A stretch of 45,935 bases of DNA from contig JAQBNO010000141.1 of assembly GCA_028288485.1 (NCBI GenBank), positions 1 to 45,935 on the forward strand. The letters are read 5' to 3'. Numbering within the stretch: the stretch's first letter is position 1; each line of letters starts with the position of its first letter. This DNA is from Segetibacter sp. (GTDB taxonomy: Bacteria; Bacteroidota; Bacteroidia; Chitinophagales; Chitinophagaceae). The position numbers were made by a program, and so were the translations under genes. Below are positions 3,311 to 42,095 of the stretch, one piece after another. The notes beneath the pieces were generated by a model. It was not told the DNA's origin and ran no database searches. It saw only the letters and a program-made list of their open reading frames with translations.

Positions 3311-3390
3311 GTTCTGTAACAGGCTGAAGAACAGGAATTAAACATCGTCCCGAGCTGCCGGGCACCCTTGTACCGCAAATCCTTGATCAT
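3311..3390 (+). repeat. Interspersed repeat copy 1, in a divergent promoter region
   Basis: It carries CTGTAACAGGCT (left end), ATTAAACATCG, a variant centre with a CCCGAGCTGCCGGG hairpin, and CCCTTGTACCG followed by CAAATCCTTG. It belongs to the same family as the other 16 copies but lies between two divergent genes rather than at a 3' end. Confidence 0.6.
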
Positions 3391-3421
3391 CTTTTTCCAA
3401 ACGTCAATTTAGCTACCCAAG

Positions 3422-3449
3422 TTTGACGGAAGGTATTATGCTACCTTTA
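3422..3449 (+). promoter_or_regulatory. Candidate promoter of the metallophosphoesterase gene
   Basis: TTTG at 3422-3425 and TACCTTTA at 3442-3449 with a 16-base spacer fit the Bacteroidota -33/-7 pattern with one mismatch. The leader to the TTG start at 3497 would be about 44 bases. Confidence 0.45.
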
Positions 3450-3496
3450 TCATTTGAAACGTTCCTCTGGTTGCGGGAACTAAAAACAACATTGAT

Positions 3497-3991
3497 TTGA
3501 AACGAATAGGACTATTATCTGATACCCACCATTACCTGGATGAAGCAGTTTTAAAACATTTTGACAATTGCGATGAAATTTGGCACGGCGGCGATTTTGG
3601 CAACTCGGTGGTCGCAGACGAATTGAAAGAGTTCAAACCATTGAGAGGCGTGTATGGAAATATAGATGGTAATGATATCAGGAGTGAATTTCCTGAAATT
3701 TTAAAGTTTAGTTGTGAACAGGTAAAAGTATTAATGATACATATCGGCGGCTATCCGGGCAAATATTCTCCGCTTGCCAAAAAAGAAATCATGTCGTTTC
3801 AACCAAAAATATTTATCGCCGGCCACTCGCACATTTTGAAAATAATGTACGATGAAAAGTTCCAGTGCCTGCACCTGAACCCGGGAGCTGCAGGTAAACA
3901 GGGCTGGCATAAAGTAAGAACACTTATCAGGTTTGTAATTGATGGTGAAAATATAAAAGACTGTGAAGTAATTGAGTTAGGGAGGAGGTAA
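3497..3991 (+). CDS. Metallophosphoesterase, YfcE/MJ0936 type
   Basis: This 164-residue calcineurin-like phosphodiesterase has all the metal-binding motifs in order: LLSDTHH (Asp8-x-His10), GGDFGN around residue 32, GNIDG around 54-58, MIHIGG around 80, and AGHSH around 108-112. Its length is typical of the YfcE group, whose members hydrolyse phosphodiesters in the cytoplasm; the substrate here is not evident. The start is TTG: no in-frame ATG lies upstream, and the product begins MKRIGLLSDTH as in homologues. It is monocistronic and divergent from the gene at 2764-3168. Confidence 0.9.
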   Translation: MKRIGLLSDTHHYLDEAVLKHFDNCDEIWHGGDFGNSVVADELKEFKPLRGVYGNIDGNDIRSEFPEILKFSCEQVKVLMIHIGGYPGKYSPLAKKEIMSFQPKIFIAGHSHILKIMYDEKFQCLHLNPGAAGKQGWHKVRTLIRFVIDGENIKDCEVIELGRR

Positions 3992-4303
3992 ACTCTTTTA
4001 GTCATCAGTCATAAGGTCAGTAAGGAGGAATGAAGGCAGGAGTTTAAGGGCCTTGCGCGATTATGCAGCTGTGAGCTTTCCACGTATGGTTGCAATTCGA
4101 TGGTCATTCGTCTGTCGTCGGTTGTCAATTTCTACGGCTCTTTTTCATTTTACATAATATTTTTTTTAATTTACCGTTATAGAAATGTATTAATTTTTTG
4201 TCATAGAGCTAAATTCTACTCCTGTTTCTACAGGAGTTTTTTTTTATTTCTGCTTTTTTCGGCCACCCAACAGAAGTCGCTAATTATACCCGCTATTTTT
4301 CTG
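3992..4303. other. Gene-free spacer between convergent genes
   Basis: There is no supported coding region. Bases 4000-4030 hold short degenerate repeats of a GTCAT/GTCAG word. From 4140 the DNA is very T-rich and ends in the terminator hairpin at 4218-4245. The open frame at 4100-4312 is low-complexity and crosses the hairpin, so I do not call it. Confidence 0.5.
4218..4245 (+). terminator. Rho-independent terminator, 227 bases past the nearest stop codon
   Basis: A 7-bp stem ACTCCTG / CAGGAGT with a TTTCTA loop is followed by nine T residues on the plus strand. The minus strand has no T tract here. The only plus-strand gene upstream ends at 3991, so it ends either a long 3' UTR or an unseen small RNA. 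Confidence 0.8.
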
Positions 4304-4720
4304 CTACAGTAGTTCAGAAAAAATATCACTCGGTTTTCCTAATAGTTTCTGAATCGGGCATGCCTCCGAAATATCAAGCATCCGACTTTTCTGCTCGTCA
4401 GTAAGGTCGCCTTTTAATTCAAGGGTACAGTTGAAAGTATTATTTCCTGATTCCATATCTGCACCTTTTACAAGGCTTACTTTCACCTTTATAGAATCTA
4501 TTTTCCAGCCCTTTCGCTGTGCATACATCCTAAGTGTAATTACTTTGCAGGAGGCTAACGACATGCACAAGTAGTCGCCGGGAGCAGCTCCTTCATCTTT
4601 ACCTCCAACTTCTACAGGTTCATCTGCTATAAGTACATGCTGGTTTTTTACCATCCGGGTGTTGTATATGCTGCCCGTGTTTTCTGCTTCTGCAGAAGCA
4701 ATAATTTTTTTTTGTAACAC
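4304..4720 (-). CDS. OsmC/Ohr-family protein
   Basis: The 138-residue protein has the two conserved cysteines of the peroxide-reducing OsmC fold: Cys58 in SLASCKVITLRM and Cys121 in EACPIQKLL. The APGDY segment before the first cysteine helix is also typical. Family members reduce organic hydroperoxides with a redox-active Cys pair in the cytoplasm. A second family member, with different sequence, lies at 12728-13135. It is convergent with the metallophosphoesterase gene and no partner is apparent. Confidence 0.88.
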   Translation of the reverse strand: MLQKKIIASAEAENTGSIYNTRMVKNQHVLIADEPVEVGGKDEGAAPGDYLCMSLASCKVITLRMYAQRKGWKIDSIKVKVSLVKGADMESGNNTFNCTLELKGDLTDEQKSRMLDISEACPIQKLLGKPSDIFSELL

Positions 4721-5240
4721 TATACTTGAATTTGTCAGAAAGTTAATTGTTGTTATTGTTGCACCGCATCATCCCTCGCTAATTCATCACCTGTAATAAA
4801 ACATCTTTCATTTTCTAAAATATCCCTGGACTCTAATCTTCACACCTGCTTTAATTCCATCTTCTTCCTGCCTGTAATATTTTTTCAGGCCTTTTCGGTG
4901 TAGCGTTGCAGATGAGTTCCGTAATAATTGTTTGAGAGGCTGAAACACGTTTATAACCCTCCATAGCTGACCAGATTTTCAAACAACTAAAAATAGGAAT
5001 ATTCAGCAAGAAGCAAGAATAATCTGAATTACCGTGATTTTTTAGAGGGTTTATTTTTAGTTGCTGCAGAAACAATATTTCAGAGAATTGCAGGCGAACC
5101 AATCGCCTTTAATAATCTGCAGGCAGTTTTCACATGCATTTGGTAAAAGTTGATAAGATACTCCGGCTAATGGCATTTAATATTCCGCAGAATTACAACA
5201 AGTTGAAGAGTGCGACCCTTCGGCGAACTTAGCGTAAACT
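4721..5240. other. Long spacer without a supported gene
   Basis: About 500 bases upstream of the OsmC-type gene have no credible coding region. The 83-codon frame at 4851-5102 (minus) has no recognisable motif and unconvincing composition. The segment could hold gene decay, but I cannot name a parent. Around 5199-5219 a short piece (AAGAGTGCGACCC on plus) resembles the core of the interspersed repeat and lies next to the full copy at 5241-5320. Confidence 0.4.
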
Positions 5241-5320
5241 GCCATGTTGAATAATGCGCTACAGTAAAAGCGAGCGTGGCAACGATGTGTAATGCTTATT
5301 CTACGGCCGGGAACCAAAAA
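5241..5320 (-). repeat. Interspersed repeat copy 2, just past a terminator
   Basis: Read on minus it begins TTTTTGGTTCCCGGC, continues GAATAAGCATTACACATCG, TTGCCACGCTCGC and TTTTACTGTAGCG, then TTATTCAAC. It closely matches the copy at 32760-32832. It starts directly at the T tract of the terminator at 5322-5349 and points the same way as that gene. Confidence 0.8.
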
Positions 5321-5321
5321 G

Positions 5322-5349
5322 AAAAACCAGCCGCAATTGCCTGGTTTTT
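5322..5349 (-). terminator. Terminator of the 5365-6634 gene pair
   Basis: A 9-bp perfect stem AAAAACCAG / CTGGTTTTT lies 16 bases past the stop codon of the four-helix membrane protein, with further T residues continuing into the repeat. Confidence 0.85.
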
Positions 5350-5364
5350 AAAAATAGCTTTTAG

Positions 5365-5853
5365 TTATGTGCCGGGAAAAAGCGGTCTTGCCACTTCCCT
5401 GAACGGCCAGGGAACTGATGCAACGATTATAAGCAGGGCAATAAAATAAAACCAGAATGAGCGGGTATGCTTTGCTTTGTCAGTGATTTTTTTCTTTGCT
5501 GAAGCTCGTCCCATTGTTATCAGGATAATTCCGATAATCATCCCGAGCGGATGCTCGACAGCCCAAAAACGTGCAACGCTGTTTTGCATGGCGGCCTTCA
5601 TTCCCATGTTTTGGATGCTTCCCAAACCCGGCCCCGCAAACCATTGATATAAACCCACCAGCAACATTATATGTGCGGAAATCATTAAGAATAATGCTGT
5701 TTTATTATCAGCCGAGTTAAAAGACTTATTACCCGCCATACCTATAAGCGATTTCAAAACAGCTATTAATAGCAAACTAAGCACAACCCAACGGCCGAAA
5801 TTGTGCAGGTGAAGCAGTCCCTGGTACATAAACAGATTTTTGATTTTCGGCAA
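5365..5853 (-). CDS. Four-helix integral membrane protein, cytochrome-b-like
   Basis: The 162-residue protein has four predicted membrane helices (about 20-40, 52-70, 102-118, 132-148). Motifs LLHLHNFGRW near the first helix and AVEHPLGM before the third place histidines near the membrane face. This fits the small Bacteroidota proteins usually labelled cytochrome B, but haem binding is an inference. The start could be Met9 (MYQGLLHLH), since the first eight residues are not typical. It follows the metalloprotease gene by 13 bases on the same strand, so the two are probably co-transcribed, and a strong terminator follows. Confidence 0.7.
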   Translation of the reverse strand: MPKIKNLFMYQGLLHLHNFGRWVVLSLLLIAVLKSLIGMAGNKSFNSADNKTALFLMISAHIMLLVGLYQWFAGPGLGSIQNMGMKAAMQNSVARFWAVEHPLGMIIGIILITMGRASAKKKITDKAKHTRSFWFYFIALLIIVASVPWPFREVARPLFPGT

Positions 5854-5866
5854 AATTAAGGCTTAA

Positions 5867-6634
5867 TCACTTTCCGCCGTTTGCAATTAAATCGTTACGA
5901 CAATTTGTATCGAAAGAAGGGATATTATTAGCCATTAAAGTACCAAGAAAACGGGAGGTTTCAGTTTGATAATACATTAAGCATTTGCTGTTAACGCAAT
6001 GTGCGGGGTTAGCAGGGTCATTATGGTTTGTTTGCATCGGTGTACCTACGTTCACCAATCCAAACAGATGCCCGAATTCATGCTCCAAAGTACCTAATTC
6101 AAGTTTGGACCGTGGAACCTGGTTAGCACCGCCCGAAAACTTACTGATCGTTTTACCGAGCAAAACGATGGAAGTATTGCGGTACGCAAACCCGACCGTA
6201 TTTTCAGGGTTATAGCCGCCATCGGTTACTAAAAGGTATACGGAAACCTGGTTGGTTGAATTAAAGGTTGTACGGTTCTGTCTTTCTATTTTATCAATTT
6301 CCGCGAGGGAAAGGGAGTCCTTTCCTGATGCAGTTATTTCCTTTTGCACAACCTGGAACGCACCTTTCTTCGTATAAGTGCTTAAAAAAGAATTTAAAGA
6401 GTTAAGAGTAGAGCTTTGCAATGCGAACCCTTTCATATAGTTTACTTCTAATACAATACTCGGTTTTTCAGCAGATAATAACTCGTTTGCTGAAGCACCG
6501 ACAGCTTTATTGTTGAAAGTATTTAAGGTTACCGAACTGCTACTGCCAGGCCCATCAGCTGTTTTCGAACATTGACTGGTAAAAAGAACTAAAAAAGATA
6601 AAGAAACCAGGGTGAGTATCTGCCGTACTTTCAT
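5867..6634 (-). CDS. Secreted archaemetzincin-like zinc metalloprotease lipoprotein
   Basis: The 255-residue protein has a lipoprotein signal peptide (LFTSQC, lipidated Cys22). The catalytic motif is HEFGHLFGLVN at 185-195: HExxHxxG, but with Asn where the third zinc His normally sits. After a short insertion comes HC-VNSK-CLM (212-220), the HC-x4-C-x-M arrangement of archaemetzincins, so His212 may supply the third ligand and Met220 the Met-turn. Bacteroidota have lipoproteins of this kind; their substrates are not known. It is first gene of a pair with the four-helix protein. A GGCATA-AAG-TATGCC inverted repeat lies upstream. Confidence 0.8.
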   Translation of the reverse strand: MKVRQILTLVSLSFLVLFTSQCSKTADGPGSSSSVTLNTFNNKAVGASANELLSAEKPSIVLEVNYMKGFALQSSTLNSLNSFLSTYTKKGAFQVVQKEITASGKDSLSLAEIDKIERQNRTTFNSTNQVSVYLLVTDGGYNPENTVGFAYRNTSIVLLGKTISKFSGGANQVPRSKLELGTLEHEFGHLFGLVNVGTPMQTNHNDPANPAHCVNSKCLMYYQTETSRFLGTLMANNIPSFDTNCRNDLIANGGK

Positions 6635-6666
6635 TTAATTATTTTTTCTAAATTTCCCGCTTTCCA

Positions 6667-6681
6667 GGCATAAAGTATGCC
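6667..6681. promoter_or_regulatory. Possible operator upstream of the metalloprotease
   Basis: GGCATA, AAG, TATGCC is a perfect 6-bp inverted repeat with a 3-base spacer, 33 bases upstream of the start at 6634. On minus it contains TACTTTAT, which could be part of a -7 box. It may be an operator or a small hairpin; only the symmetry is observed. Confidence 0.3.
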
Positions 6682-6851
6682 AGCGAAACTTCATTTTATT
6701 TCTTCTAAGGCTAACAGTAAATTTCTTTTCAAATAATTAACTGATGATAAATCTACAGTTATCGTTGGGTAGCCGGGTTTTTATTTGCAAAATAATTCTT
6801 GCAATGCCTTGATTAATGGAAGAAAAAAACAGGAAAGCAGGTTTACAGTTT

Positions 6852-6859
6852 TACTTTTG
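6852..6859 (+). promoter_or_regulatory. -7 box adjacent to the TPR lipoprotein start
   Basis: TACTTTTG fits TAnnTTTG and ends four bases before the ATG at 6864. If used, the mRNA would start at or within a base or two of the start codon. No clear -33 element is seen. Confidence 0.4.
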
Positions 6860-6863
6860 CCGC

Positions 6864-7661
6864 ATGAAAAAATGGATGATCGTTCTGGTTGTGCTGGTTG
6901 TAATTTGTTCGTGTGGTGAAGACGAGAATAAAATAACACCTCCTGTAAACCCTGTATCATCCTCATTAATAGATGAACTCACAGCAGAGGTGCGGCAACA
7001 TCCGGATAGTCCAAACGTAAGAATGAAACTGATCAATACACTTGATAGCCTCAAAATGTATAGAGAAGCAATTGCACAAACAGATAGCCTGATAAGAAAA
7101 GACAGCCTTAACAATAATTACTGGCTGATTAAAGCCCAATTGCAGGAAGATGATAGAGACACTTCGGGTGCAATAAATAGTTATATCAGTTCATTAAACA
7201 TCTACCCTGCTTCAGACGTTCAGCTTAACCTCGCCAACCTTTTTGCAGAAACCAAAAACCAGAGGGCGCTTATAATATGCGACAACGTTCGTAAAATGGG
7301 CTTAGGACGGGAAGTTGATGCGGACTGTAATTTTATTGCAGGTGTTTATTTTGCACGAACAGGGGATAATAAAAAAGCACTGCAATTGTTTGACCTGGCC
7401 ATCAATGATAACTACACATTAATGGAAGCTTACATGGAAAAGGGCTTTATTTATTACGAAAGCAAAAACTACCAGGATGCTTTAAAAGTTTTTGACAAAG
7501 CCGTTACAGTAAGTAACACCTATGCTGATGCATATTACTGGAGAGCAAAATGCTATGAGGCAATGGGCAATAAGCCGGAAGCCATTATTAATTATAAAAG
7601 ATCGTTAGGTTTAGACAAACAGTTGAAGGAAGCTGCGGAGGCGATAAAGAGATTGGAATAG
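6864..7661 (+). CDS. TPR-repeat lipoprotein
   Basis: I start the gene at 6864 (MKKWMIVLVV), not at the upstream ATG at 6816, because residues from 6864 form a lipoprotein signal (VVICSCGED, lipidated Cys) and the upstream codons overlap the promoter box. The 265-residue product has tetratricopeptide repeats: AIAQTDSLIRKDSLNNNYW, GAINSYISSLNIYP, ALQLFDLAINDNYT, ALKVFDKAVTVSNT and AIINYKRSLGLDKQ, the last three in regular 34-residue spacing. Such proteins act as periplasm-facing scaffolds on the inner or outer membrane; the partner here is unknown. It stands alone and is divergent from the metalloprotease. Confidence 0.85.
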   Translation: MKKWMIVLVVLVVICSCGEDENKITPPVNPVSSSLIDELTAEVRQHPDSPNVRMKLINTLDSLKMYREAIAQTDSLIRKDSLNNNYWLIKAQLQEDDRDTSGAINSYISSLNIYPASDVQLNLANLFAETKNQRALIICDNVRKMGLGREVDADCNFIAGVYFARTGDNKKALQLFDLAINDNYTLMEAYMEKGFIYYESKNYQDALKVFDKAVTVSNTYADAYYWRAKCYEAMGNKPEAIINYKRSLGLDKQLKEAAEAIKRLE

Positions 7662-7724
7662 GGAATAAATCGTGGACTCAAGTAGTCATAGCTAAAACGA
7701 AAGATCAATTTTTAAAAATGAATA

Positions 7725-7785
7725 TCTAACTATCAATTCTCATCTCTGTCAACCGTTATCTGTCATCCGTTAACGGTCAACTTAA
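7725..7785. repeat. Degenerate short-word repeats
   Basis: The spacer between the TPR gene and rpe repeats variants of a GTCAA/GTCAT-CCGTTA word (CTGTCAACCGTTATC, then CTGTCATCCGTTAACGG). Similar word-like patches recur in other spacers of the window. Confidence 0.4.
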
Positions 7786-7796
7786 AAAAACAATAC

Positions 7797-8447
7797 ATGC
7801 CCATAATAGCCCCATCTTTATTAGCTGCTGATTTTTTACACCTGCAGGACGAATGCGACATGCTGAATAAAAGTGAGGCGGAATGGTTTCACCTCGATGT
7901 AATGGATGGCAGATTTGTTCCAAATATCAGTTTTGGGCTGCCGGTGATTGAGCAAATAAGAACGGCAACAAAAAAGGTCTGCGATGTTCATTTAATGATC
8001 GTTGAACCTGAAAAATATGTGGAGGCTTTTAAAAAAGCGGGAGCAGATAATTTAACAGTTCATATTGAAGCAAGCGTTCATTTACACCGAACGATTGAGC
8101 TGATAAAAAGCCTGGGAATGAAAGCCGGGGTTGCAGTAAATCCGCATACTTCCATCTCATTATTGACTGACATTATTCATGAGATTGATCTTGTAAACTT
8201 AATGAGTGTAAATCCTGGATTTGGGGGGCAGAAATTCATTCAGCATACGATCGAAAAAATCAAGCAGTTGCGAAAAATGATTGACGAAAAGGGTTTGAAA
8301 GTGCATATCGAAATCGATGGCGGAGTAACGATGGAAAATGCATCAGAAATTATTGAAGCCGGTGCAGACGTTTTAATTGCAGGAAGTACTGTTTTCAAAG
8401 CTGCAGACCCGTTAGCCACTATTGCTCAGTTAAAGGCTATTCGTTAA
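7797..8447 (+). CDS. rpe: Ribulose-phosphate 3-epimerase
   Basis: The 216-residue TIM barrel interconverts ribulose 5-phosphate and xylulose 5-phosphate in the pentose phosphate pathway, in the cytoplasm. Landmarks in order: IAPSLLAADF at the N-terminus with the active-site Ser, HLDVMDGRFVPN (catalytic Asp and metal ligands), DVHLMI with the second His, MSVNPGFGGQKF (phosphate-binding loop) and EIDGGV with the catalytic Asp. Length is standard. It is followed by mtaB on the same strand after 147 bases, with mtaB having its own promoter. Confidence 0.97.
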   Translation: MPIIAPSLLAADFLHLQDECDMLNKSEAEWFHLDVMDGRFVPNISFGLPVIEQIRTATKKVCDVHLMIVEPEKYVEAFKKAGADNLTVHIEASVHLHRTIELIKSLGMKAGVAVNPHTSISLLTDIIHEIDLVNLMSVNPGFGGQKFIQHTIEKIKQLRKMIDEKGLKVHIEIDGGVTMENASEIIEAGADVLIAGSTVFKAADPLATIAQLKAIR

Positions 8448-8587: not shown

Positions 8588-8594
8588 CGCCCTT

Positions 8595-9880: not shown

Positions 9881-10186
9881 ATGGAGGAGCCGAATGTTAA
9901 GAAATTTCTTGTAACCATAAACTTTTTTATGGACGAGCAATTTATGAACCTCGTTCCTCCTCACCGCACCTATATCAATTACCTCATCAACAAAGGCATA
10001 GTAGATTCTTACGCGGTCAGCATGGAAAGCTACCGAAGCTGGATCATGATGACCGCCGAAAATAAAGATGAGGTTAGGAATTATCTCAAAAAGTCCCCTC
10101 TCTTCAAATACTGGACTTTCGAGATTGATGAACTCTTTGTGTACGACGGGCAAACTTATCGGCTGCCGGCTTTGCAAATGAATTAG
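9881..10186 (+). CDS. YciI-like small protein
   Basis: The 101-residue protein (109 if started at ATG 9857, which overlaps mtaB by 13 bases) has the ferredoxin-like pattern of YciI/muconolactone-isomerase-type proteins: FLVTINFFMDEQFMNLVPPHRTYI, a helix with LINKGIVDSYAVSM, a strand IMMTAENKDEVRNYL and a C-terminal strand TFEIDELFVYDG. Residue His-Arg-Thr-Tyr around 33 matches the position of the conserved His in YciI. Function is unknown. The repeat copy at 10187 begins immediately at the stop codon. Confidence 0.7.
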   Translation: MEEPNVKKFLVTINFFMDEQFMNLVPPHRTYINYLINKGIVDSYAVSMESYRSWIMMTAENKDEVRNYLKKSPLFKYWTFEIDELFVYDGQTYRLPALQMN

Positions 10187-10260
10187 TTTTTTTTGTTACC
10201 GGCTTTTGAATATATGATAGCCATCGTTGTGTCACTCACTGGTACTTGCAGATTCGTTAT
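10187..10260 (+). repeat. Interspersed repeat copy 3, abutting a stop codon
   Basis: TTTTTTTTGTTACCGGC starts at the base after TAG of the YciI-like gene, followed by TTTTGAATATATGATAG, CCATCGTTGTGTCACTCAC, and TGGTACTTGCAG. It has the same orientation as the gene. No other terminator lies between. Confidence 0.85.
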
Positions 10261-11615: not shown

Positions 11616-11754
11616 GGAATACCAATGGAATTATTTGATTAACGAATTTCTATCTCTCTTTCTAAAGACACGTAGAAATAACAAAGGTCTGACATTAAAC
11701 ATTACAAACAGCAGGAATTGTGACCCCAGGATAAAGTTTGGAACGTTGCGCACA

Positions 11755-11822
11755 GTTATAAAAGCACAAGTGTGCGACGCAACGACCGCCTTATAGAACT
11801 ACAATTGTCTGCTATCAAAAAG
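11755..11822 (-). repeat. Interspersed repeat copy 4
   Basis: Read on minus: TTTTTGATAGCAGAC, a variable part, GGTCGTTGCGTCGCAC and ACTTGTGC. It lies 56 bases past the stop of the outer-membrane protein gene (11878-12687) and points the same way as it. Confidence 0.75.
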
Positions 11823-11877
11823 TTCTCAGTTCTTAGCTCCTACTTACCACATGACTTTTTAACTTATTGACTTTTCC
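11819..11877. repeat. Degenerate short-word repeats
   Basis: Words of the type GTTCTCAGTTCTTAGCTCC and TGACTTTTTAACTTATTGAC recur here, similar in style to patches at 7725, 37437 and 42142. Confidence 0.3.
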
Positions 11878-12727: not shown

Positions 12728-13135
12728 ATGACATCACAGATAAAATACGAAGGGAATTTACGAACGGTTGCCACCCATTTACAAAGTGAATCGGTAATTG
12801 AAACCGACGCACCAGTCGATAACCAGGGTAACGGAGCACGTTTTTCGCCTACCGATCTTGTGGCTACAGCCTTAGGTAGCTGCATGCTTACTATCATGGG
12901 AATCAAAGCAAGAGACCTAAATTTAAGCCTCGAAGGAACCAAAATAGATATCACCAAAATAATGGTTACAGATCCGCGTAGAATTGGAGAAATTAAAGTT
13001 GAGATAAATTTTCCTGAAAATTTAAAACCTGACGAAAAGCAAAAAACAATTATAGAAAGAGCCGCTATGACCTGCCCCGTTTTCGAAAGTCTTCATCCCG
13101 ATTTAAAGAAGGATGTGGCGTTTAGGTGGAGCTGA
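12728..13135 (+). CDS. OsmC-family protein
   Basis: The 135-residue protein has the OsmC fold with Cys52 (ALGSCMLTIMGIKA) and Cys116 (AAMTCPVFESL), the two redox cysteines. The N-terminal strand region (IKYEGNLRTVATHLQSESVI ending in TDAP) and FSPTDLVATALGSC are typical of the YhfA/OsmC group. It is predicted to reduce peroxides in the cytoplasm; the substrate is unknown. It is divergent from the outer-membrane protein gene and shares the 40-base promoter region with it. Confidence 0.9.
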   Translation: MTSQIKYEGNLRTVATHLQSESVIETDAPVDNQGNGARFSPTDLVATALGSCMLTIMGIKARDLNLSLEGTKIDITKIMVTDPRRIGEIKVEINFPENLKPDEKQKTIIERAAMTCPVFESLHPDLKKDVAFRWS

Positions 13136-13177
13136 GGGGAAAGGAATTAGGAATTTGGAAATCAGGAATTAGCGAAT

Positions 13178-13255
13178 GGTTTGTGTGGGACATGCATTTG
13201 AATAAAAATTATGCATTGTTGTGTCACTCACTTGTACTGTAGCGTTTTATTGAGC
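13178..13255 (+). repeat. Interspersed repeat copy 5
   Basis: It contains TTTGAATAAAAATTATG, CATTGTTGTGTCACTCAC, and TTGTACTGTAGCG then TTTTATTG. It lies 43 bases past the stop of the OsmC gene with the same orientation. The left end (GTTTGTGTGGGAC) is more diverged. A patch of GGAATTAGGAATTTGG words precedes it at 13141-13175. Confidence 0.75.
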
Positions 13256-13284
13256 TTTTTTCCGCGCAAGGAGTAGAGGAATTG

Positions 13285-15439: not shown

Positions 15440-15497
15440 TCCGGCCACGGCGGCAACGATGATCGATCCCGGAACTACTGCCGGTATCAAAAAAAAT
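15440..15497 (-). repeat. Interspersed repeat copy 6
   Basis: Read on minus: TTTTTTTTGATACCGGCAG, TAGTTCCGGGATCG, then ATCATCGTTGCCGCCGTGG. It lies 80 bases past the stop of the M14 peptidase gene, in the same orientation as it. The core differs from most copies (CCGCCGTGGC in place of CGTCGCAC). Confidence 0.7.
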
Positions 15498-18102: not shown

Positions 18103-18242
18103 TCGAATTTGGTGATTAGACAGATACATTAGAACTCATTTGTTGAAATCCAAAAAATATTGTTCTAAACAACGCCTTTTCGTTAGAAAATTCAACTGGG
18201 GCTAGAGTTGTAATGGTGCGTATTCCCGGTAATTCTATAAGC

Positions 18243-18322
18243 TTTTTTGGTACCGGCATTTGTTCTTCCCCAAAACATCGTTGCGTCGCATTTCGTTCGT
18301 CCGTAAATCTTTATTCAACATT
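18243..18322 (+). repeat. Interspersed repeat copy 7 (left arm of an inverted pair)
   Basis: TTTTTTGGTACCGGC, ATTTGTTCTTCCCC, AAAACATCGTTGCGTCGCA and TTTCGTTCGTCCG, then TAAATCTTTATTCAACAT. It is oriented opposite to both flanking minus-strand genes and faces copy 8. Confidence 0.85.
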
Positions 18323-18359
18323 TTTCAAAGCTGATACCGGTTTATTAATGGCCGCACAA

Positions 18360-18427
18360 AGATATACGGTACAAGCTGTGCGACGCAACGGAAGATGCGG
18401 CGAAAACTAAAAGCCGGGCTCCAAAAA
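18360..18427 (-). repeat. Interspersed repeat copy 8 (right arm of an inverted pair)
   Basis: Read on minus: TTTTTGGAGCCCGGC, TTTTAGTTTTCGCCGCATC, TTCCGTTGCGTCGCAC and AGCTTGTACCG. It lies past the terminator of the TonB receptor gene in that gene's orientation. With copy 7 it forms an inverted repeat of about 190 bp whose outer ends are GCTTTTTTGG and CCAAAAAGC. Confidence 0.85.
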
Positions 18428-18457
18428 GCAATAAATAGATAGAATCTGAATTAATAT

Positions 18458-23300: not shown

Positions 23301-23352
23301 TATAGAACCGGGATTAGTAGATCGAGTTGTGATTTAGAGGAAATTGAGGAGG

Positions 23353-23420
23353 GGTTTTTTGAAGCAAACAGCGGTTAGTGATGTTACATTGTTGCGTCGC
23401 ACACTTGTACTTTTTGCCCG
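23353..23420 (+). repeat. Interspersed repeat copy 9
   Basis: TTTTTTGAAGC (left end), ATGTTACATTGTTGCGTCGC and ACACTTGTACTTTTTGCCC. It lies 53 bases past the stop of ggt, in the same orientation. Confidence 0.7.
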
Positions 23421-23535
23421 TTTAGCAACAGGTTTAAAAATACTTTTAACCATTTCAGCTTCACAAATCCTGCAAAAATAAATACACTTAATACTTCTCG
23501 CTGCAACTTTAAATCGTTGCTTTAATTGATAAAAC

Positions 23536-23602
23536 AAGGATTTACAGTTGAACGGAGCGTCGCAACAAAAGACTCATTTCTTAATAATGCCGGCTACCAA
23601 AC
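23536..23602 (-). repeat. Interspersed repeat copy 10
   Basis: Read on minus: TTTGGTAGCCGGCATTATT, TTTTGTTGCGACGCTCCG and TTCAACTGTAAATCCTTG. It starts 23 bases past the glmM stop in the same orientation as glmM, and faces copy 9; the cores are about 170 bases apart with a 115-base central segment that holds no recognisable gene. Confidence 0.7.
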
Positions 23603-23624
23603 CATCCTTCCGGACTTTTAAAAA

Positions 23625-26454: not shown

Positions 26455-26520
26455 CGTCCCGGCCCCGAATCTCTATTAAACATCGTTCACGCCGGCAGGT
26501 GTGGCTCTTGTACAATTAGT
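26455..26520 (+). repeat. Interspersed repeat copy 11, in a divergent promoter region
   Basis: It has CCCGGC at the left end, ATTAAACATCGTTCACGCC, then GGCAGGTGTGG, then CTCTTGTAC. Like copy 1 it carries ATTAAACATCGT and lies between divergent genes. Confidence 0.6.
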
Positions 26521-28828: not shown

Positions 28829-28879
28829 AGAGGTTTCGAAATGTACTTGTTTTCTTAAGTAACAAGCTGCAAAAAAACT

Positions 28880-28940
28880 GGAAGTACAAGGGAGTGACAC
28901 AACGATGTTGAAGGAAGTACTATTGGCTGGTTACCTAAAA
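28880..28940 (-). repeat. Interspersed repeat copy 12
   Basis: Read on minus: TTTTAGGTAACCAGCC, AATAGTACTTCCTTC, AACATCGTTGTGTCACTCCC and TTGTACTTCCAG. It lies past the terminator of the flavoprotein gene in the same orientation. Confidence 0.75.
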
Positions 28941-28983
28941 ACTCTACCTAATTTCTACGGTTAAGATTCAACCTTTGTACCCA

Positions 28984-31977: not shown

Positions 31978-32050
31978 GTATTTTTTTGGTACAGGTTTTA
32001 GTTCCCTGATTGTTCATCGTTGCGTCGCATTTCGTTCAACGGCAACAACT
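31978..32050 (+). repeat. Interspersed repeat copy 13
   Basis: TTTTTTTGGTACAGGTTTTAG, TTCCCTGATTG, TTCATCGTTGCGTCGCATTT, then CGTTCAACGG. It lies 26 bases past the stop of the CorC-type gene in the same orientation. Confidence 0.75.
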
Positions 32051-32740: not shown

Positions 32741-32759
32741 GATGATTGATTAATTGCTG

Positions 32760-32832
32760 CATGAACGTTTGCAGTAGAAGTGAGTGACACAACGATGTAT
32801 AATGCTTATTCAACTGCCGGCAACCACAAAAT
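32760..32832 (-). repeat. Interspersed repeat copy 14
   Basis: Read on minus: TTTTGTGGTTGCCGGCAG, TTGAATAAGCATTATAC, ATCGTTGTGTCACTCAC and TTCTACTGCAAACG. It begins one or two bases past the stop of the DUF6702 gene, in the same orientation. It is nearly the same as copy 2 over 60 bases. Confidence 0.82.
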
Positions 32833-32833
32833 C

Positions 32834-33316
32834 TTAAAAATTAATAGCGTAATTTTTCTTCGGATAATCTAATTTGTCTGATTGTTCCTTGCCATTCGCC
32901 ATTATATGCAACATGTTTATCTGCTCAGGCCGGTAATCGTGCAAAAGGCTGTTAGTGATCTCCATTTTGTTCACGCCGGTTACGTTTCTAACCACAAAAT
33001 AATTCCACGTGCTTTCTTCTTCCTGTTGGTAGCCCGCGAACTCCAGGTTCTGTAACTGGCCGTTTACTTTAATCTGTAAATGTTTGAGAACATAAGCATT
33101 TACCAGTTTTTCCATGGCATTTTTATCCTGCTGAGCCAATAAATCCACTTTGCAATTGCAATTCTTTCTCAGTGTTTTTTCAAAATCATCGGTAAAGATC
33201 CTTACACTAACCTCCAACGCCTTCGATTTATTATTATAATTTATTTCCGTCATACTAATATAAAAGGGATGGAAAAAAGCGGCTGTGTAAATAGTTAACC
33301 AGGTAAAAAAAGGCAT
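32834..33316 (-). CDS. DUF6702 family exported protein
   Basis: The 160-residue protein has a short signal/anchor segment (FFTWLTIYTAAFF) then HPFYISMTEINYNNKSKALE and VSVRIFTDDFEKTLRK, the two defining motifs of DUF6702. KVDLLAQQD, LQIKVNGQLQNLEFAGYQQE and the ending QSDKLDYPKKNYAINF are also family-like. Function is unknown; the protein is probably periplasmic. It is divergent from a HupE/UreJ-like gene and an M1 peptidase gene. I know DUF6702 as recurring next to these two in Bacteroidota. Confidence 0.85.
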   Translation of the reverse strand: MPFFTWLTIYTAAFFHPFYISMTEINYNNKSKALEVSVRIFTDDFEKTLRKNCNCKVDLLAQQDKNAMEKLVNAYVLKHLQIKVNGQLQNLEFAGYQQEEESTWNYFVVRNVTGVNKMEITNSLLHDYRPEQINMLHIMANGKEQSDKLDYPKKNYAINF

Positions 33317-36336: not shown

Positions 36337-36381
36337 GATTTTAAAGACCTTTCGATCGCACCGCTTTTTTATGTTTGTTAT

Positions 36382-36462
36382 TTTCTTTTGTTACCGGCAT
36401 TGGTTCTTTTTGCGGCCCAGGTTGTGTCACTCACTTCATCTTGTAGAATCTTTATTCATCGA
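36382..36462 (+). repeat. Interspersed repeat copy 15
   Basis: TTTTCTTTTGTTACCGGCAT, TGGTTCTTTTTGCGGCCC, AGGTTGTGTCACTCACTTC and TTGTAGAATCTTTATTCATC. It lies 46 bases past the M1 stop in the same orientation, and shows the right-hand end (TTTATTCA) well. Confidence 0.85.
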
Positions 36463-37343: not shown

Positions 37344-37363
37344 TAGAATTCGTTCGAAAACAA

Positions 37364-37398: not shown

Positions 37399-37436
37399 AT
37401 GCAAAGGATAGTAGAACACTACTATTTCTTCTAACT

Positions 37437-37496
37437 CTTTTAACTATCATCAGTCATCCTCTTATCTGTTATCTGTTATCTGTCATCCGCCAGCTT
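37437..37496. repeat. Degenerate short-word tandem repeats
   Basis: TTATCTGTTATCTGTTATC is followed by TGTCATCCGCC and preceded by CATCAGTCATCC: an 8-base word (TTATCTG) in near-perfect tandem. Its words overlap those at 7725-7785. Confidence 0.6.
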
Positions 37497-37519
37497 CGAT
37501 CATCCCGCGATCTCACTTC

Positions 37520-38194
37520 CTACAACGTCGTTCCATCAATCACCTTCACCTTCTTCTTTCCGACCTTTTTTTCAAATTCCATTACTTCCTTTGGTTTTGC
37601 TTTTACAGGCGGTTTCGTTGTCTTACTATCTGAAGATTCTGATGAAGCCGTAGCGTCGGCCATTATTTTTCTTGGGTCTTCCATCTTACCAAGAAAATAG
37701 GTTTCACTTCTTATCACCGCACCTGATCCGCTTGCAAAGTATTTCCAAATCCCATGCTTAACTGAAGTGCCTTCAATTTTAATTACCTGTCTTTGCACTT
37801 TATTTGGGTCAACCGGGTCAAATACATCAACCGTATCAAAAGGATTATCAGGATTAACGGCTTTCCAGCTTTCTTCTCTTGTCAAACCCGATATGTCGTA
37901 GTATTGGCTCTTGCCATCCTTGTTACCCCAGCGGTACCTTTCGATACCCAATAAATCACCCATTCTGGTGTAGATCCGCCAAACTCCCTCTTTTTTGCCA
38001 TCCTTGTAAATGCCCTCTTCATCATACCCGGGTTCGCCCCTAATACTTTCAACCTTGTTCGACCATCTTCCCTGGCGAAGGTCTTTTTGGTCAATTCGGT
38101 TAATAGTATCTCCGTTATTTATTAGCCGATAACTTTTCCACTGTGCGTTAACGGTAAATGATGTAAACAACAATAAAATAAATAACCATTTCAT
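37520..38194 (-). CDS. Exported MORN/YwqK-like repeat protein
   Basis: The 224-residue protein has a signal peptide (MKWLFILLLFTSFTVNAQ) followed by MORN-variant strands: DLRQGRWSNKV, GIYKDGKKEGVWRIYTRMGDLL, RYRWGNKDGKSQYYDISGLTR and VKHGIWKYFASG. The C-terminal 50 residues are Ser/Lys/Pro-rich. Such proteins are common in Bacteroidota and have no known activity despite the 'YwqK antitoxin-like' label often given. It is transcribed from the same strand as aroQ but is separated from it by a 135-base spacer. Confidence 0.8.
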   Translation of the reverse strand: MKWLFILLLFTSFTVNAQWKSYRLINNGDTINRIDQKDLRQGRWSNKVESIRGEPGYDEEGIYKDGKKEGVWRIYTRMGDLLGIERYRWGNKDGKSQYYDISGLTREESWKAVNPDNPFDTVDVFDPVDPNKVQRQVIKIEGTSVKHGIWKYFASGSGAVIRSETYFLGKMEDPRKIMADATASSESSDSKTTKPPVKAKPKEVMEFEKKVGKKKVKVIDGTTL

Positions 38195-38329
38195 AGCTGA
38201 AAATTATACTTCGAAATTAACCTTGTATTTATAAACCAGCGAGAGAAGGTGTGTTAATTAACATCTAAGCTTGACCACATCTGAGCCATCTAGCACGAAA
38301 CTATTCGGGCAGGATAAACACGATGTTCT

Positions 38330-38749
38330 TTAACCCTTCAAAAAGAATTGTATGGCCAATTCGTATCCTTTCAGTCCCAAACCGCTTATTGTTCCTTTGC
38401 ACTTTGCAGAAACATGACTGATCTTTCTGAAATCCTCCCTTGCATGTACATTACTTATATGAACTTCAATTACCGCGGTTGAAATAGCAGCAATTGCATC
38501 ACCTATAGCAACCGAAGTATGCGTGTATCCCCCCGGGTTCATTATTATCCCCTCATGGCTAAAACCGTATTCCTGCAGTTTATTTATCAACTCCCCTTCT
38601 ACATTACTCTGGTAATATGATAACTCTACACCAGGAAATTTATTTTGTAACTCCCTGAAAAATTGCTCAAAGTTTTGCTTACCATACACCTCCGGCTCGC
38701 GAATACCCAGCAGGTTCAAATTAGGACCGTTAATAATTGCTATTTTCAT
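38330..38749 (-). CDS. aroQ: Type II 3-dehydroquinate dehydratase
   Basis: The 139-residue enzyme removes water from 3-dehydroquinate to give 3-dehydroshikimate in the shikimate pathway. IINGPNLNLLGIREPEVYG carries the substrate loop with the catalytic Tyr and Arg; QSNVEGELI, NPGGYTHTSVAI and EVHISNVHAREDFRK (catalytic His) are intact, and the C-terminal GLKGYELAI is standard. The C-rich hairpin repeat abuts the start codon: GGGGGT lies directly before ATG, so its hairpin may mask the start. The spacer to carA (159 bases) is filled by that repeat. Confidence 0.97.
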   Translation of the reverse strand: MKIAIINGPNLNLLGIREPEVYGKQNFEQFFRELQNKFPGVELSYYQSNVEGELINKLQEYGFSHEGIIMNPGGYTHTSVAIGDAIAAISTAVIEVHISNVHAREDFRKISHVSAKCKGTISGLGLKGYELAIQFFLKG

Positions 38750-38750
38750 A

Positions 38751-38908
38751 CCCCCTAACCCCCTGGAGGGGGAATTTTAAAGCCTCCGATATTTACCGGA
38801 GACGGATTTATAATAACTCGAAATAATAACTTTCCCCGGCTGCCTTTATAAACGTTTCAGCAATAAAGGCCGCTGTAGGCCTCCCCTTGAGGGGGAGGTT
38901 TGGTGGCG
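38751..38908 (-). repeat. C-rich hairpin repeat pair filling the carA-aroQ spacer
   Basis: The left element at 38751-38774 reads CCCCCTAACCCCC then TGGAGGGGGAA on plus. The right element at 38879-38908 reads CTCCCCTTGAGGGGGAGG then TTTGGTGGCG and abuts the carA stop. Each forms a G/C hairpin. Between them lie CTCCGATATTTACCGGAG (another hairpin) and no gene. This kind of element is familiar in Bacteroidota spacers from memory. Weaker relatives lie at 40861-40885, 41973-41993 and 42893-42912. Confidence 0.75.
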
Positions 38909-40000
38909 TTACTTCATCATCTCAATAAACTCGTCAAATAAATAGCGGCTATCGTGCGGACCAGGGAAACTTTCAGGATGGTATTGAACACTAAAAGCTT
39001 GTTTTCCTTTAACCCTGATTCCTTCAATACTGTCATCATTCAGGTTAACATGGGTGATCTCGATATTCGGGTTATTTCTTACTGCCTCAGGATCAACGCC
39101 AAAGCCATGATTTTGAGTCGTTATTTCACACCTCCCTGAGATAATGTTTTTTACAGGGTGATTTAAACCCCTGTGACCATGATGCATTTTATAGGTAGGA
39201 ATATCATTTGCCAAAGCCAGTAACTGGTGGCCCAGGCAAATACCAAACATCGGCTTGTTTTCCTCTAAAATTTCTTTCAGGGTATCAACTGCATAATTCA
39301 TTGCAGCGGGATCGCCAGGTCCGTTAGAAATAAAGTACCCATCCGGGTTGAACTCCTTCATCTCGCTTAAGGTTGCATTTGAAGGAAATACCTTTATATG
39401 AGCGCCCCTGCTGGTCATACAGGTTAAAATGTTCTGCTTAACGCCATAATCCATAACCGCAATCTTTATCGGCGAATTTTTATCGCCTTGCTCGTAAGCT
39501 TTTTGGGTACTCACTTTTGAAGCCAACTCTAGCCCATCCATGCTTGGAACCTCAGCAAGTTGTGCTTTTAATTGTTCGACGTCAAGTATCTCCGAAGAAA
39601 TTATGCAGTTCATTGCACCTTTTGTACGCACGTGCGCTACCAACGCCCTTGTATCTACATCTTCAATACTTACAATGTTATTCTGCTTCAAATATGCATC
39701 AAGAGAGCCATTCGCCTGTTTGCGGCTGTACAGTTCCTCCAGGTTACGACCAATCAGTCCCTGTATTTTCACAGTATCACTTTCAACATCAGATTCTTTT
39801 ACCCCGTAATTACCAACGTGGACATTGTTCATTATCACGATCTGCCCGTAGTAGCTGGGATCGGTAAATACTTCCTGGTAACCTGTCATGCCGGTATTAA
39901 AACAAATTTCGCCGGTAGTGGTTCCTGTTTTACCAAAGGCTTTGCCATAATACAAAGTACCATCATCGAGAAGTAGAATTGCGGTTGGTTGCTTGTTCAT
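38909..40000 (-). CDS. carA: Carbamoyl-phosphate synthase small (glutaminase) subunit
   Basis: The 363-residue subunit hydrolyses glutamine and supplies ammonia to CarB for carbamoyl phosphate synthesis (arginine and pyrimidines). The N-terminal CPSase domain (about 5-135) has FNTGMTGYQEVFTDPSYYGQ; the class I amidotransferase domain has ISNGPGDP, the nucleophile elbow MFGICLGHQLL and the His-Glu pair in SVQYHPESFPGPHDS. Length is normal. carB is not adjacent. Its position just past rplQ, as in other Bacteroidota, is a conserved neighbourhood from memory. Confidence 0.97.
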   Translation of the reverse strand: MNKQPTAILLLDDGTLYYGKAFGKTGTTTGEICFNTGMTGYQEVFTDPSYYGQIVIMNNVHVGNYGVKESDVESDTVKIQGLIGRNLEELYSRKQANGSLDAYLKQNNIVSIEDVDTRALVAHVRTKGAMNCIISSEILDVEQLKAQLAEVPSMDGLELASKVSTQKAYEQGDKNSPIKIAVMDYGVKQNILTCMTSRGAHIKVFPSNATLSEMKEFNPDGYFISNGPGDPAAMNYAVDTLKEILEENKPMFGICLGHQLLALANDIPTYKMHHGHRGLNHPVKNIISGRCEITTQNHGFGVDPEAVRNNPNIEITHVNLNDDSIEGIRVKGKQAFSVQYHPESFPGPHDSRYLFDEFIEMMK

Positions 40001-40020
40001 TTAGTTATAAAAGTTTCTTT

Positions 40021-40060
40021 TTTGTGAAACGTCAAACGTGAAACGTCAATTTTTCAACTT
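40021..40060. repeat. Short tandem words upstream of carA
   Basis: GTGAAACGTCAAACGTGAAA and CGTCAATTTTTCAAC: a 14-base unit (GTGAAACGTCAAAC) repeats nearly twice. Confidence 0.5.
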
Positions 40061-40079
40061 GACCTGCCCGTTTGCCGCG

Positions 40080-40146
40080 ACATATTTTATAGTACAAGAG
40101 TGCGACGCAAGAATGCCGCTTTCATTTTTTTAGCCGGGCCCAAAAT
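40080..40146 (-). repeat. Interspersed repeat copy 16
   Basis: Read on minus: TTTTGGGCCCGGCTAAAAAA, GAAAGCGGC, ATTCTTGCGTCGCAC and TCTTGTACTATAAAATATG. It lies past the rplQ terminator in the orientation of rplQ, upstream of carA. Confidence 0.8.
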
Positions 40147-40186
40147 TATCAATATCCTTAAAAATGTTATGCTAAACTTACCAACA

Positions 40187-40220
40187 ACAAAAAAGGCAAA
40201 GCCGTAAGACTTTGCCTTTT
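40187..40220 (-). terminator. Terminator of the alpha ribosomal operon (after rplQ)
   Basis: An 11-bp perfect stem AAAAGGCAAAG / CTTTGCCTTTT with an 8-base loop, followed on minus by TTGTTGTTGG; 19 bases past the rplQ stop. Confidence 0.92.
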
Positions 40221-40238
40221 GTTATTTTGTAAGCTAAC

Positions 40239-40811
40239 TTATTCACCAGCTTTTTCTTCAGGTTTGTTATTGATAACGGCTTCATCAGCATTTGCATCAG
40301 TAGCAGCAGGAAGATCAGTAGCAGTTGTAACTTCAGCAGCAGTTGTTGCAGGAGCAGTTGTTGCCGTTCCTTCACCACCTCTTCTGCTACGTCCGCGACG
40401 GGTTCTTTTAACCGCAGTATCGGCTTCAGCAGCAACACCATTTCCGTAGATTTCGTTGTAGTCAACCAGTTCAATAAGTGCTAATTCAGCATTATCTCCG
40501 TGACGGGCTCCTAACTTAATGATACGTGTGTAACCACCAGGGCGACCTTCAACTTTCAAACGAACTACATCAAATAATTCTTTGATGGCTTCTTTGTCCT
40601 GCAGGTAACTGAACACTATACGACGTTGGTGTGTAGTGTTATCTTTAGCCTTAGTGATAAGAGGCTCAACATAAGTTCTTAAAGCTTTTGCTTTAGCTAA
40701 TGTTGTAGTAATACGCTTGTTCGCGATCAATTGAGCAGCCAGGTTGCTAAGCAACGCAGCGCGGTGGGCGGCCTTACGGCCTAAATTGTTAATTTTGTCT
40801 CCGTGACGCAT
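40239..40811 (-). CDS. rplQ: 50S ribosomal protein L17 with a C-terminal extension
   Basis: The first about 120 residues are standard L17: [40 protein letters not shown] and a C-terminal [22 protein letters not shown]. Residues 125-190 form an extra tail that is first basic ([13 protein letters not shown]) and then Ala/Thr/Glu-rich ([17 protein letters not shown]). This kind of extension is known in Bacteroidota L17. Last gene of the alpha operon. Confidence 0.97.
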
Positions 40812-40951
40812 GACTTTTTTGTTTTATTCCGTTGCACCGTGTCAGGACTTACAACAGTTGATCCTCAACCCCTAAAGGGAATAAGAGATCGTTAATTAAA
40901 ATTTATGAACTTCTGCCTTCTCGTACCCTCAACGGTACGCCGGGAAGGGTT
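40812..40951 (-). repeat. Spacer with decayed C-rich repeat and a hairpin
   Basis: Between rpoA and rplQ: CCTCAACCCCTAAAGGGAAT at 40863-40882 resembles the C-rich hairpin element. CGTACC / GGTACG around 40923-40940 forms a 6-bp hairpin without T tract. No gene. Confidence 0.4.
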
Positions 40952-41953
40952 TTAATAATCGTCTTTATCAACGCCTAACTTACCAAGATCCATTCCGAAA
41001 CCTAAACCTCTTTCGTTCAGCACCTGCTCAATTTCACTCAAAGATTTCTGACCGAAGTTCCTGAACTTCATCAGGTCTTCCTGCTCGTATTGTACCAGTT
41101 CGCTTAAACTGTTGATTTTTGCCGCTTTTAAGCAGTTAAAGGCACGTACAGAAAGGTCAAGATCTTCAAGCGGAGTTTTCAGTACTTTACGCAGTTGAAG
41201 TGTTTGCTCATCTACCAGGTCTTCTTTCTTTTCTTCTTTGCTGTCGAAAGTAATGTTCTCGTCGGTAATGATCATCAGGTGCTGTATCAAAATTCGTGAA
41301 GCCTGTTTAACAGCTTCTTCCGGATGAATGGTACCGTCGGTCTGAACTTCCATCAACAGTTTTTCGAAGTCGGTCCTTTGCTCCACACGGGTATTTTCAA
41401 TCGTATATTTTACGTTTTTAATCGGCGTATGAATACTATCAATAGGAATATATCCGAACACAGAGTCTTTCACCCTGTTATCTTCGGCAGGAACGTAACC
41501 ACGACCTTTGGCAATAGTGATCTCGATATCGAGCTTAGAAGTATTATCCATTGTACAAATAAGTAGCATTGGATTCATCACGTCGAAAGCCTGGGTTGCA
41601 TCACCGATCATACCTGCAGTAAACTCGGTTTGATTTTTAATGCTAAGCGTTATCTTTTCGGTATTAACGTCGCCTTCTACTTTTTTCTTAAAACGAACCT
41701 GCTTAAGGTTCAGTACGATTTCGGTTACATCTTCTGTAACACCTCTCAGTGTGGCAAATTCATGCTCAGCACCTTCGATTTTTATACCTACAATGGCATA
41801 CCCTTCCAGCGAACTCAATAACACTCTACGAAGTGCATTTCCAATGGTAAGGCCATAACCTGGCTCCAATGGACGAAATTCAAACTGTGCCTCAAAATCG
41901 TTTGCCTTCTGTAAAACGATCTTGTCGGGTTTCTGAAAATTTAAAATGGCCAT
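40952..41953 (-). CDS. rpoA: RNA polymerase alpha subunit
   Basis: The 333-residue subunit has the N-terminal assembly domain ([31 protein letters not shown], about 25-55; [20 protein letters not shown]-like segment about 165-185) and a C-terminal domain with helix-hairpin-helix ([38 protein letters not shown]). The linker between domains is acidic ([11 protein letters not shown]). Length is normal for the phylum. In the alpha operon between rpsD and rplQ. A 211-base spacer with a repeat copy separates it from rpsD. Confidence 0.98.
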   Translation of the reverse strand: [333 protein letters not shown]

Positions 41954-41972
41954 TATTTGTTGACGATTTGTA

Positions 41973-41993
41973 CCCCAACCCCTTAAGAGACTT
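41973..41993 (-). repeat. Decayed C-rich repeat between rpsD and rpoA
   Basis: TACCCCAACCCCTTAAGAGA on plus resembles the element upstream of aroQ (CCCCCTAACCCCCT) but has lost most of its 3' half. It lies about 20 bases upstream of the rpoA start. Confidence 0.4.
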
Positions 41994-42025
41994 TTTATCC
42001 TCTTGATAAGCTTGAGGTGATTCTA

Positions 42026-42095
42026 TTTTTTTTGTTACCGGCTTTTGTGTGTTATTGAACTTCTCTTGCGTCGCACTCTTGTACCGTTGTTAATG
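42026..42095 (+). repeat. Interspersed repeat copy 17, inside the ribosomal operon
   Basis: TTTTTTTTGTTACCGGC, TTTTGTGTGTTATTG, AACTTCTCTTGCGTCGCAC and TCTTGTACCGTTG. It is oriented against the minus-strand operon, and is the only copy interrupting a co-directional operon. A word repeat CACCATTCACTATTCACC lies at 42147-42164 next to it. Confidence 0.85.

Follow-up and report, generated by a model that had tools for sequence, protein, structure and literature searches.

The window considered here is the whole stretch of 45,935 nucleotides of contig JAQBNO010000141.1 from a Segetibacter sp. assembly (GCA_028288485.1, family Chitinophagaceae; 6,375,045 bases in 220 contigs), and the gaps between its genes carry copies of an interspersed repeat of about 80 bp. 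Read in one direction, the repeat consists of a T-tract that is usually closed by G, about 3 bases, CCGGC or CCAGC, a spacer ending TATTNAACATCG, and a 19-bp core, with a weaker stretch 3' of the core that has the end TTATTCAGC. The core, TTGYGTCRCNCNCTTGTAC, is preceded by CATCG and occurs in several variants, and two TATTCARC-like words, recognised by eye, flank it as short direct repeats. A preliminary description of the window had counted 17 copies; 15 of these were recovered by a profile hidden Markov model (HMM) at E<0.01, while the copies at 3311 and 26455 reached only E=0.023 and E=7.6. The copies are as follows.

3304..3380, + strand: copy with interrupted core (CATCGT, a small GC-rich insert, CACCCTTGTAC) in a divergent gap; HMM E=0.023 for 3304-3348, right end set by eye.
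5241..5321, - strand: copy with core variant TTGCCACGCT, upstream gene on the same strand; HMM.
10178..10255, + strand: variant A (TGTCACT) copy in a convergent gap; the HMM envelope runs 9 nt into the end of the upstream gene, which is on the same strand.
11734..11829, - strand: variant B (CGTCGCA) copy, upstream gene on the same strand; HMM.
13173..13267, + strand: variant A copy, antisense to both called neighbours; HMM.
15453..15497, - strand: left module with interrupted core, upstream gene on the same strand; HMM.
18234..18290, + strand: variant C (TTGCGTCGCATTTCGTTC) copy, antisense, facing the 18340-18430 copy; HMM.
18340..18430, - strand: variant B copy, upstream gene on the same strand; HMM.
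23345..23440, + strand: variant B copy in a convergent gap; HMM.
23523..23608, - strand: copy with core variant TTGCGACGCT in a convergent gap, facing the 23345-23440 copy; HMM E=0.008.
26455..26500, + strand: weak candidate with interrupted core that does not reach significance by itself (HMM E=7.6); CATCGTT and CTTGTAC are seen.
28854..28949, - strand: variant A copy in a convergent gap; HMM.
31978..32029, + strand: variant C copy in a convergent gap; HMM.
32747..32838, - strand: variant A copy, upstream gene on the same strand; HMM.
36381..36436, + strand: variant A copy with altered second box; HMM; the orthologous gap has no copy in G003 and G007.
40071..40152, - strand: variant B copy 3' of the ribosomal L17 gene; HMM; present in G005, G009 and G004 (variant A), absent from G006 and G003.
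42024..42105, + strand: variant B copy in the gap that separates the S4 gene from that of RNA polymerase alpha, antisense; HMM.

By the gene calls used here, the gene preceding the copy is on the same strand in 12 of the 15 copies that the HMM supports, and the 13178 copy was scored antisense because an open reading frame (ORF) on the + strand (12728-13135), opposite a called gene, was not itself called. The copies at 3311, 15440 and 26455 resemble short interrupted forms of the repeat. That at 3311 is probably genuine but interrupted, since the orthologous gap of congener G009 holds a standard, uninterrupted variant B copy.

The repeat family is genuine and extends far beyond the window. Allowing at most 1 mismatch, the core matched the 6.38-Mb genome 886 times (434 on one strand and 452 on the other) and the reversed motif 0+0 times, which bears out the interspersed repeat family first proposed from the window. 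An iterated profile HMM yielded 206 copies at E<0.02 in 826 kb of the genome; the seed of the HMM applied to the window included 8 window copies, so that HMM scores within the window are partly circular, while the genome-wide core count is not. An HMM built from the left module alone was too weak. After TTG, the core reads CGTCGCA in 83 of the 206 copies (variants B and C, which are distinguished by the following sequence) and TGTCACT in 67 (variant A); the rarer forms are CCACGCT (22), CTACGCT (10) and others (7), and 17 copies are interrupted or were unread by the pattern. The strongest covariation among the aligned copies linked two core columns of the dyad, which were complementary in 184 of 187 sequences (C-G 115, T-A 69) against 98.8 expected. 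With three-base arms and one base between them the dyad is not a hairpin, and it looks like a protein site.

Some copies are mosaic. Twelve places matched CATCGTTGCTACGCTCAGTTCAA within two edits, many of which, as judged by eye, then fold back and run on into GCCGAAGGG units. In 9 of the 12, GTCGCAATNCGTTCATC, which is the right-hand module of variant C, recurred 74-122 nt downstream with at most 4 substitutions, compared with 17 of 3,000 random positions, so other units sit within otherwise standard copies; hairpins were seen within interrupted copies only. The GCCTGAGCGAAGCCGAAGGGTA units inside mosaic copies constitute a separate repeat. A longer subfamily (contigs C11, C54, C90 and C133 of this genome) has additional bases, CTACTAATGAACTCGTTTTTGCTGTCTTGATTTTT, ahead of the T-tract, and these sometimes follow a second left module. 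At 38750-38908 the window holds a different gap repeat, built as ACCCCCTAACCCCCTGGAGGGGG, and some congeners have similar sequence in their gaps.

Core matches were present in 23 of 59 searched genomes, this one included: 23 of 36 Chitinophagaceae and 0 of 23 from other families of the order. The reversed control motif matched once in all 59, in the relative G013, and several Chitinophagaceae genomes had just 1-4 matches, which may partly be due to chance. Within the genus, the number of matches per genome ranged from 5 (G007) to 1,296 (G001), and that of a second core pattern from 3 to 388. A scan of named genomes returned, among the matches listed (80 of 108 stretches), only records of Chitinophagaceae genera or bacteria, Chitinophagales, Sphingobacteriales and Bacteroidota/Bacteroidetes.

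Copies come and go at orthologous gaps. Between the S4 and RNA polymerase alpha genes, a copy lies at one position in this genome and in G005 and at another position in G001 and G002, and there is none in G003, G004, G006, G008 and G009; the copies present are antisense to the operon, and the one in the window falls within an S13-S11-S4-rpoA-L17 gene cluster. Behind the L17 gene, four species have TAnTTTTG, a sequence similar to a Bacteroidota promoter box, ahead of the copy, and two species without a copy have it too, which suggests that the T-tract is the target and not part of the element. I infer REP- or MITE-like mobility (REP, repetitive extragenic palindromic sequence; MITE, miniature inverted-repeat transposable element). 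The preliminary description had proposed insertion at terminators, of which insertion beside T-tracts is supported at this one locus, but terminator-like folds precede a minority of copies. Folds of -6 kcal/mol or lower stood before the T-tract in 12 of 104 same-strand copies (5.4 expected) and in 4 of 63 others (3.3 expected), so that a hairpin preceding the copy is not a general feature.

Genes are avoided, with only 9 of the 206 copies inside called genes; apart from tandem gaps, 56 copies lay in convergent gaps, 27 in divergent gaps and 7 at edges. Per kb of gap there were 1.76 copies in convergent, 1.26 in tandem and 0.65 in divergent gaps. Copies in tandem gaps were sense to their neighbours in 71 cases and antisense in 36 (p=0.0009), and congener G009 showed a similar ratio of 28:13 (p=0.028; 73 copies in 500 kb), but in congener G005 the ratio was 21:20 (p=1.0; 66 copies in 274 kb). 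What had been described as copies at gene 3' ends in the gene's orientation is thus a modest same-strand tendency and not a rule. The median distance from the upstream stop codon to the copy was 52 nt (127 copies), and residual gap length did not differ with orientation in 148 single-copy tandem gaps (p=0.22).

This bias behind genes and the short distance from the stop codon would suit a 3' untranslated region RNA element, namely a terminator, a stabiliser (both suggested from the window alone) or a site for an RNA-binding protein. Such a role appears very improbable in view of the balanced tandem gaps of G005 and the few folds that precede copies. RNAalifold, run on 100 of 189 aligned copies, found no consensus structure on either strand, in a test of low power since shuffled controls also gave none, and neither the window nor one 20-kb stretch matched Rfam; a structured RNA family was rejected on these grounds. 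Among the copies shared by G005 and G009, moreover, the core was kept nearly equally well in the 5 that lie antisense to both neighbouring genes (86 of 95 positions) and in the 12 others (213 of 228).

Copies also occur in viral contigs, which are viral by prediction and may include host DNA. Here, 46 stretches had an exact core, of which 42 had profile hits, and 65 distinct copies were distinguished, with up to 4 in one stretch. Tandem gaps held 15 sense and 21 antisense copies, again unlike what an RNA element behind genes would lead one to expect, while 20 copies lay in or overlapped gene calls and 9 lay at edges. The three bacteria have a different tandem ratio (Fisher p=0.016). Many viral copies are placed tightly between, or over, gene ends. 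One stretch with three copies (L275, contig IMGVR_UViG_2920066549_000002) matched PHROG families of a transposase and a DNA transposition protein and may be read as Mu-like.

Copies that are many and dispersed, a core kept whatever the neighbouring genes, and carriage by viral contigs including one with transposition functions could all point to a genome tag for DNA-processing machinery, comparable to an uptake sequence or a Chi site and carried by phages too. I consider this improbable. Known uptake and Chi words are enriched in coding DNA, but in 826 kb of this genome the short core words were not (TTGCGTCGCA occurred 2 times in coding and 85 times in non-coding DNA), for which a DNA uptake word was rejected, and whole units of the repeat appear and disappear. 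Nor was there a convincing replication-strand bias in G013, a single-contig relative, where 34 of the 57 exact matches listed (144 with at most 1 mismatch) lay by eye on the presumed lagging strand. At 1.7-3.4 Mb of G013:C1, 17 of 19 exact cores among these 57 were on the + strand, a block that was picked after seeing it.

The observation that no REP-associated tyrosine transposase (RAYT) gene is encoded here holds for the inspected part of the window. In the genome as a whole, Y1_Tnp is represented by one intact gene and a single broken match. No copy of the repeat was found in the 2,040 bases around the intact gene (L051), whose short flank has a separate repeat with GGTTGGGCTCTGCCCAAC-type hairpins. 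Across ten congeners, Y1_Tnp matches did not track copy number, with 7 in copy-poor G007, 0 in G006, and in copy-rich G001 only a match broken by three stops and a weak partial one, and a RAYT/IS200 (Y1) mobiliser was accordingly rejected. An IS91/Y2 mobiliser was likewise rejected, as Y2_Tnp occurred in 3 of 10 genus genomes and was lacking in G001, G005, G008 and G009, four of the five copy-richest. Of 11 regions around Y1 genes, some of them short, four contained copies (two in L304 and one each in L312, L317 and L318) and seven contained none; two Y1 genes had one copy within 200 nt on one side, and none had copies on both sides.

That the repeats are derivatives of rolling-circle (IS91, Y2) or IS200/IS605 (Y1) transposons is therefore most unlikely, even with the copies close to two Y1 genes counted in its favour. 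Variants of the repeat do continue with CTTG or GTTC, the target words of IS91, and landing beside TTTTG recalls IS200-type target use. An autonomous parent element was also considered in G004, where the examined copy pairs about 2 kb apart flank ORFs, and was rejected as no sequence was common between pairs. Clustering of 1,785 proteins brought out no gene family with a copy on each side; the single outlier, a cluster of 18 proteins, 15 of them flanked by a copy on one or both sides, would appear, in a reading made with no family search, to be short-chain dehydrogenases.

The fate of individual copies was followed between G005 and G009, for which the compared stretches hold 115 reciprocal best proteins with a median identity of 87%. 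HMM-called copies stood in both species in 14 orthologous gaps, in G005 only in 8 and in neither in 48, and in 2 of the 8 the G009 core is still visible. The orthologous gaps held 25 G005 copies, all but 1 with a readable core; among these 24, alignment by the left module alone gave 19 loci, in which the core agreed at 149 of 160 positions (first 9 nt) and 157 of 180 (next 10). The remainder agreed at 384 of 551 positions in the left module, 146 of 231 in the T-tract, 68 of 88 in CATCG, 198 of 310 in the right module, and 474 of 683 and 360 of 637 in the flanks, with gaps left out and two probably absent copies aligned by chance. In the 18 loci that also had at least 10 aligned core letters, the core agreed at 306 of 340 positions and the rest at 1505 of 2325 (gaps left out), the core being higher in 17 of 18 (Wilcoxon 5e-5). 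Counting gaps as differences in the 17 loci called shared, which also needed over half of the first 9 core letters and of which 5 lie against both neighbouring genes, gave 0.93 for the core and 0.56 for the rest, with the core higher in 17 of 17 (Wilcoxon 1.5e-5). By sequence comparison in this one species pair, the core is thus the best-kept part of orthologous copies, whichever way the copy points.

These copies share descent, as seen when parts were aligned alone in 14 orthologous pairs and in random pairs: the left module reached 0.69 and 0.54, respectively, and the left flank 0.70 and 0.49. The right module gave 0.66 and 0.49, and the core 0.87 and 0.76, its first 9 nt being identical in 10 of the 14. 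Rare variants of the core reappear locus by locus in two or three species, and TTGCCACGCTCGG is kept at one antisense locus in G005, G009 and G008. G008 was compared from partial contigs (7 G005 and 5 G009 copies in orthologous gaps), and where a copy was present, 17-19 of the 19 core letters were kept in 6 comparisons at 5 loci.

Building on the observed copy number and layout, the unequal numbers among congeners, presence and absence at orthologous gaps, gene avoidance, modest 3'-end bias and better-kept core in one species pair, I tentatively favour, at a little short of even confidence, the reading that this is a Chitinophagaceae-specific, non-autonomous, mobile, T-tract-directed mosaic repeat whose core is a putative protein-binding site at the DNA level. 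New copies would land beside T-rich tracts ending TTTTG, and as such tracts stand at gene ends, the orientation and 3'-end bias could arise without transcripts needing to use the element. After landing, the T-tract and the left module would drift, while the core (the GYGTCRC dyad and a box of the CTTGTAC type, set between short direct repeats such as TATTCARC) would be kept through protein binding to double-stranded DNA. The putative core-binding protein may serve chromosome organisation or the separation of transcription units.

Several results weigh against this reading. When the core was masked in G005 before alignment, 14 of 17 loci kept 15-19 of the 19 core letters, the three misses being one absent copy and two that lost register though the core was seen unmasked, but the overall test was marginal (261 of 323 compared with 1440 of 2234, Wilcoxon 0.05). 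Other intergenic windows of 19 nt were at least as well kept as the core in 306 of 4,199 cases, the core being unsurpassed in 5 of 17 loci, and random copy pairs are already 0.76 identical in the core, so part of the core likeness is family likeness. In G008, 3 aligned loci had no core and 3 further copies were unaligned, and the G005/G008 test gave p=0.06 with two core losses included. The sample of shared copies is small, and the dyad signal could partly reflect old subfamilies. Orthologous empty sites had diverged too far to give exact ends or a target duplication, no pairing consensus for terminal inverted repeats was found in aligned copies whose exact ends are not fixed (short direct repeats were seen by eye instead), and no mobiliser or binding protein turned up in this analysis.

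The marginal masked test and the likeness of random pairs would also suit a MITE- or REP-like repeat that is purely selfish and does nothing for its host, in which the core likeness comes from fresh copies at the same favoured gaps or from conversion between copies. The 5 to 1,296 matches among congeners, the presence and absence at orthologous gaps, the different positions within one gap in different species and the copies in viral contigs are in keeping with it. I regard it as unlikely, though by no means far-fetched, because orthologous copies exceed random pairs in left module and flank likeness and rare core variants recur at their own loci. A selfish repeat is further at odds with the failure of any tested transposase to track copy number and with the 1,785 proteins, among which no family with copies on both sides stood out.

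More specifically, the putative protein-binding core could be the site of a Chitinophagaceae chromosome protein, with the mobile repeat having spread hundreds of sites across hosts and phages and selection keeping each, in either direction, in the chromosome layout; this I hold to be rather doubtful. If the core is a selected site, the family would show in nature how a repeat can become a network of binding sites across a genome. The core's apparent retention in many copies amid freely changing surroundings hints at a use. The range of 5 to 1,296 matches within one genus lends itself to comparing genomes for the effect of the sites, and core DNA could serve directly as bait for its putative protein.

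No report of this repeat family, in Segetibacter or in Chitinophagaceae, was found in the literature covered, outside which many subscription journals lie. New here is that in gaps shared by G005 and G009 the core is better kept than the remainder of the repeat, antisense copies included. Of known systems, Neisseria and Haemophilus uptake sequences likewise have a dispersed conserved core with copies near gene ends, but the core described here is not enriched in coding DNA and is present or absent as part of whole units. REP sequences, bacterial interspersed mosaic elements (BIME) and REP doublets forming hairpins (REPIN) comprise hundreds of short imperfect intergenic copies, fewer in divergent gaps, with some inverted pairs and mosaic combinations. 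The present repeat is also numerous, short, intergenic and divergent-poor, with some inverted pairs and mosaics. It differs in its length of about 80 bp, its build of T-tract side and core, and in having no shared hairpin or palindromic stem-loop in the low-power RNAalifold test and no GTAG tag as a family feature; nor was a linked Y1 (RAYT) gene flanked by copies found in the 11 Y1 regions, some of them short.

CGTC-tagged palindromic repeats, which are reported to occur in 5 phyla including Bacteroidetes and apparently have no dedicated transposase (PMC3733652), are similarly short, and variant B contains CGTC. Variant A, however, has TGTC, and here CGTC lies within the dyad and has no shared stem-loop after it; 67 of 206 copies read TGTCACT and 32 of 206 CCACGCT or CTACGCT, and no palindrome was shared. 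The MITE of Porphyromonas gingivalis (PMC4596501) is an interspersed non-autonomous element from the same phylum; in the present repeat no terminal inverted repeats or target duplication were seen, its exact ends not being fixed. Although it departs from REP sequences in palindrome and RAYT linkage, the family works like an interspersed repeat of the REP/BIME type.

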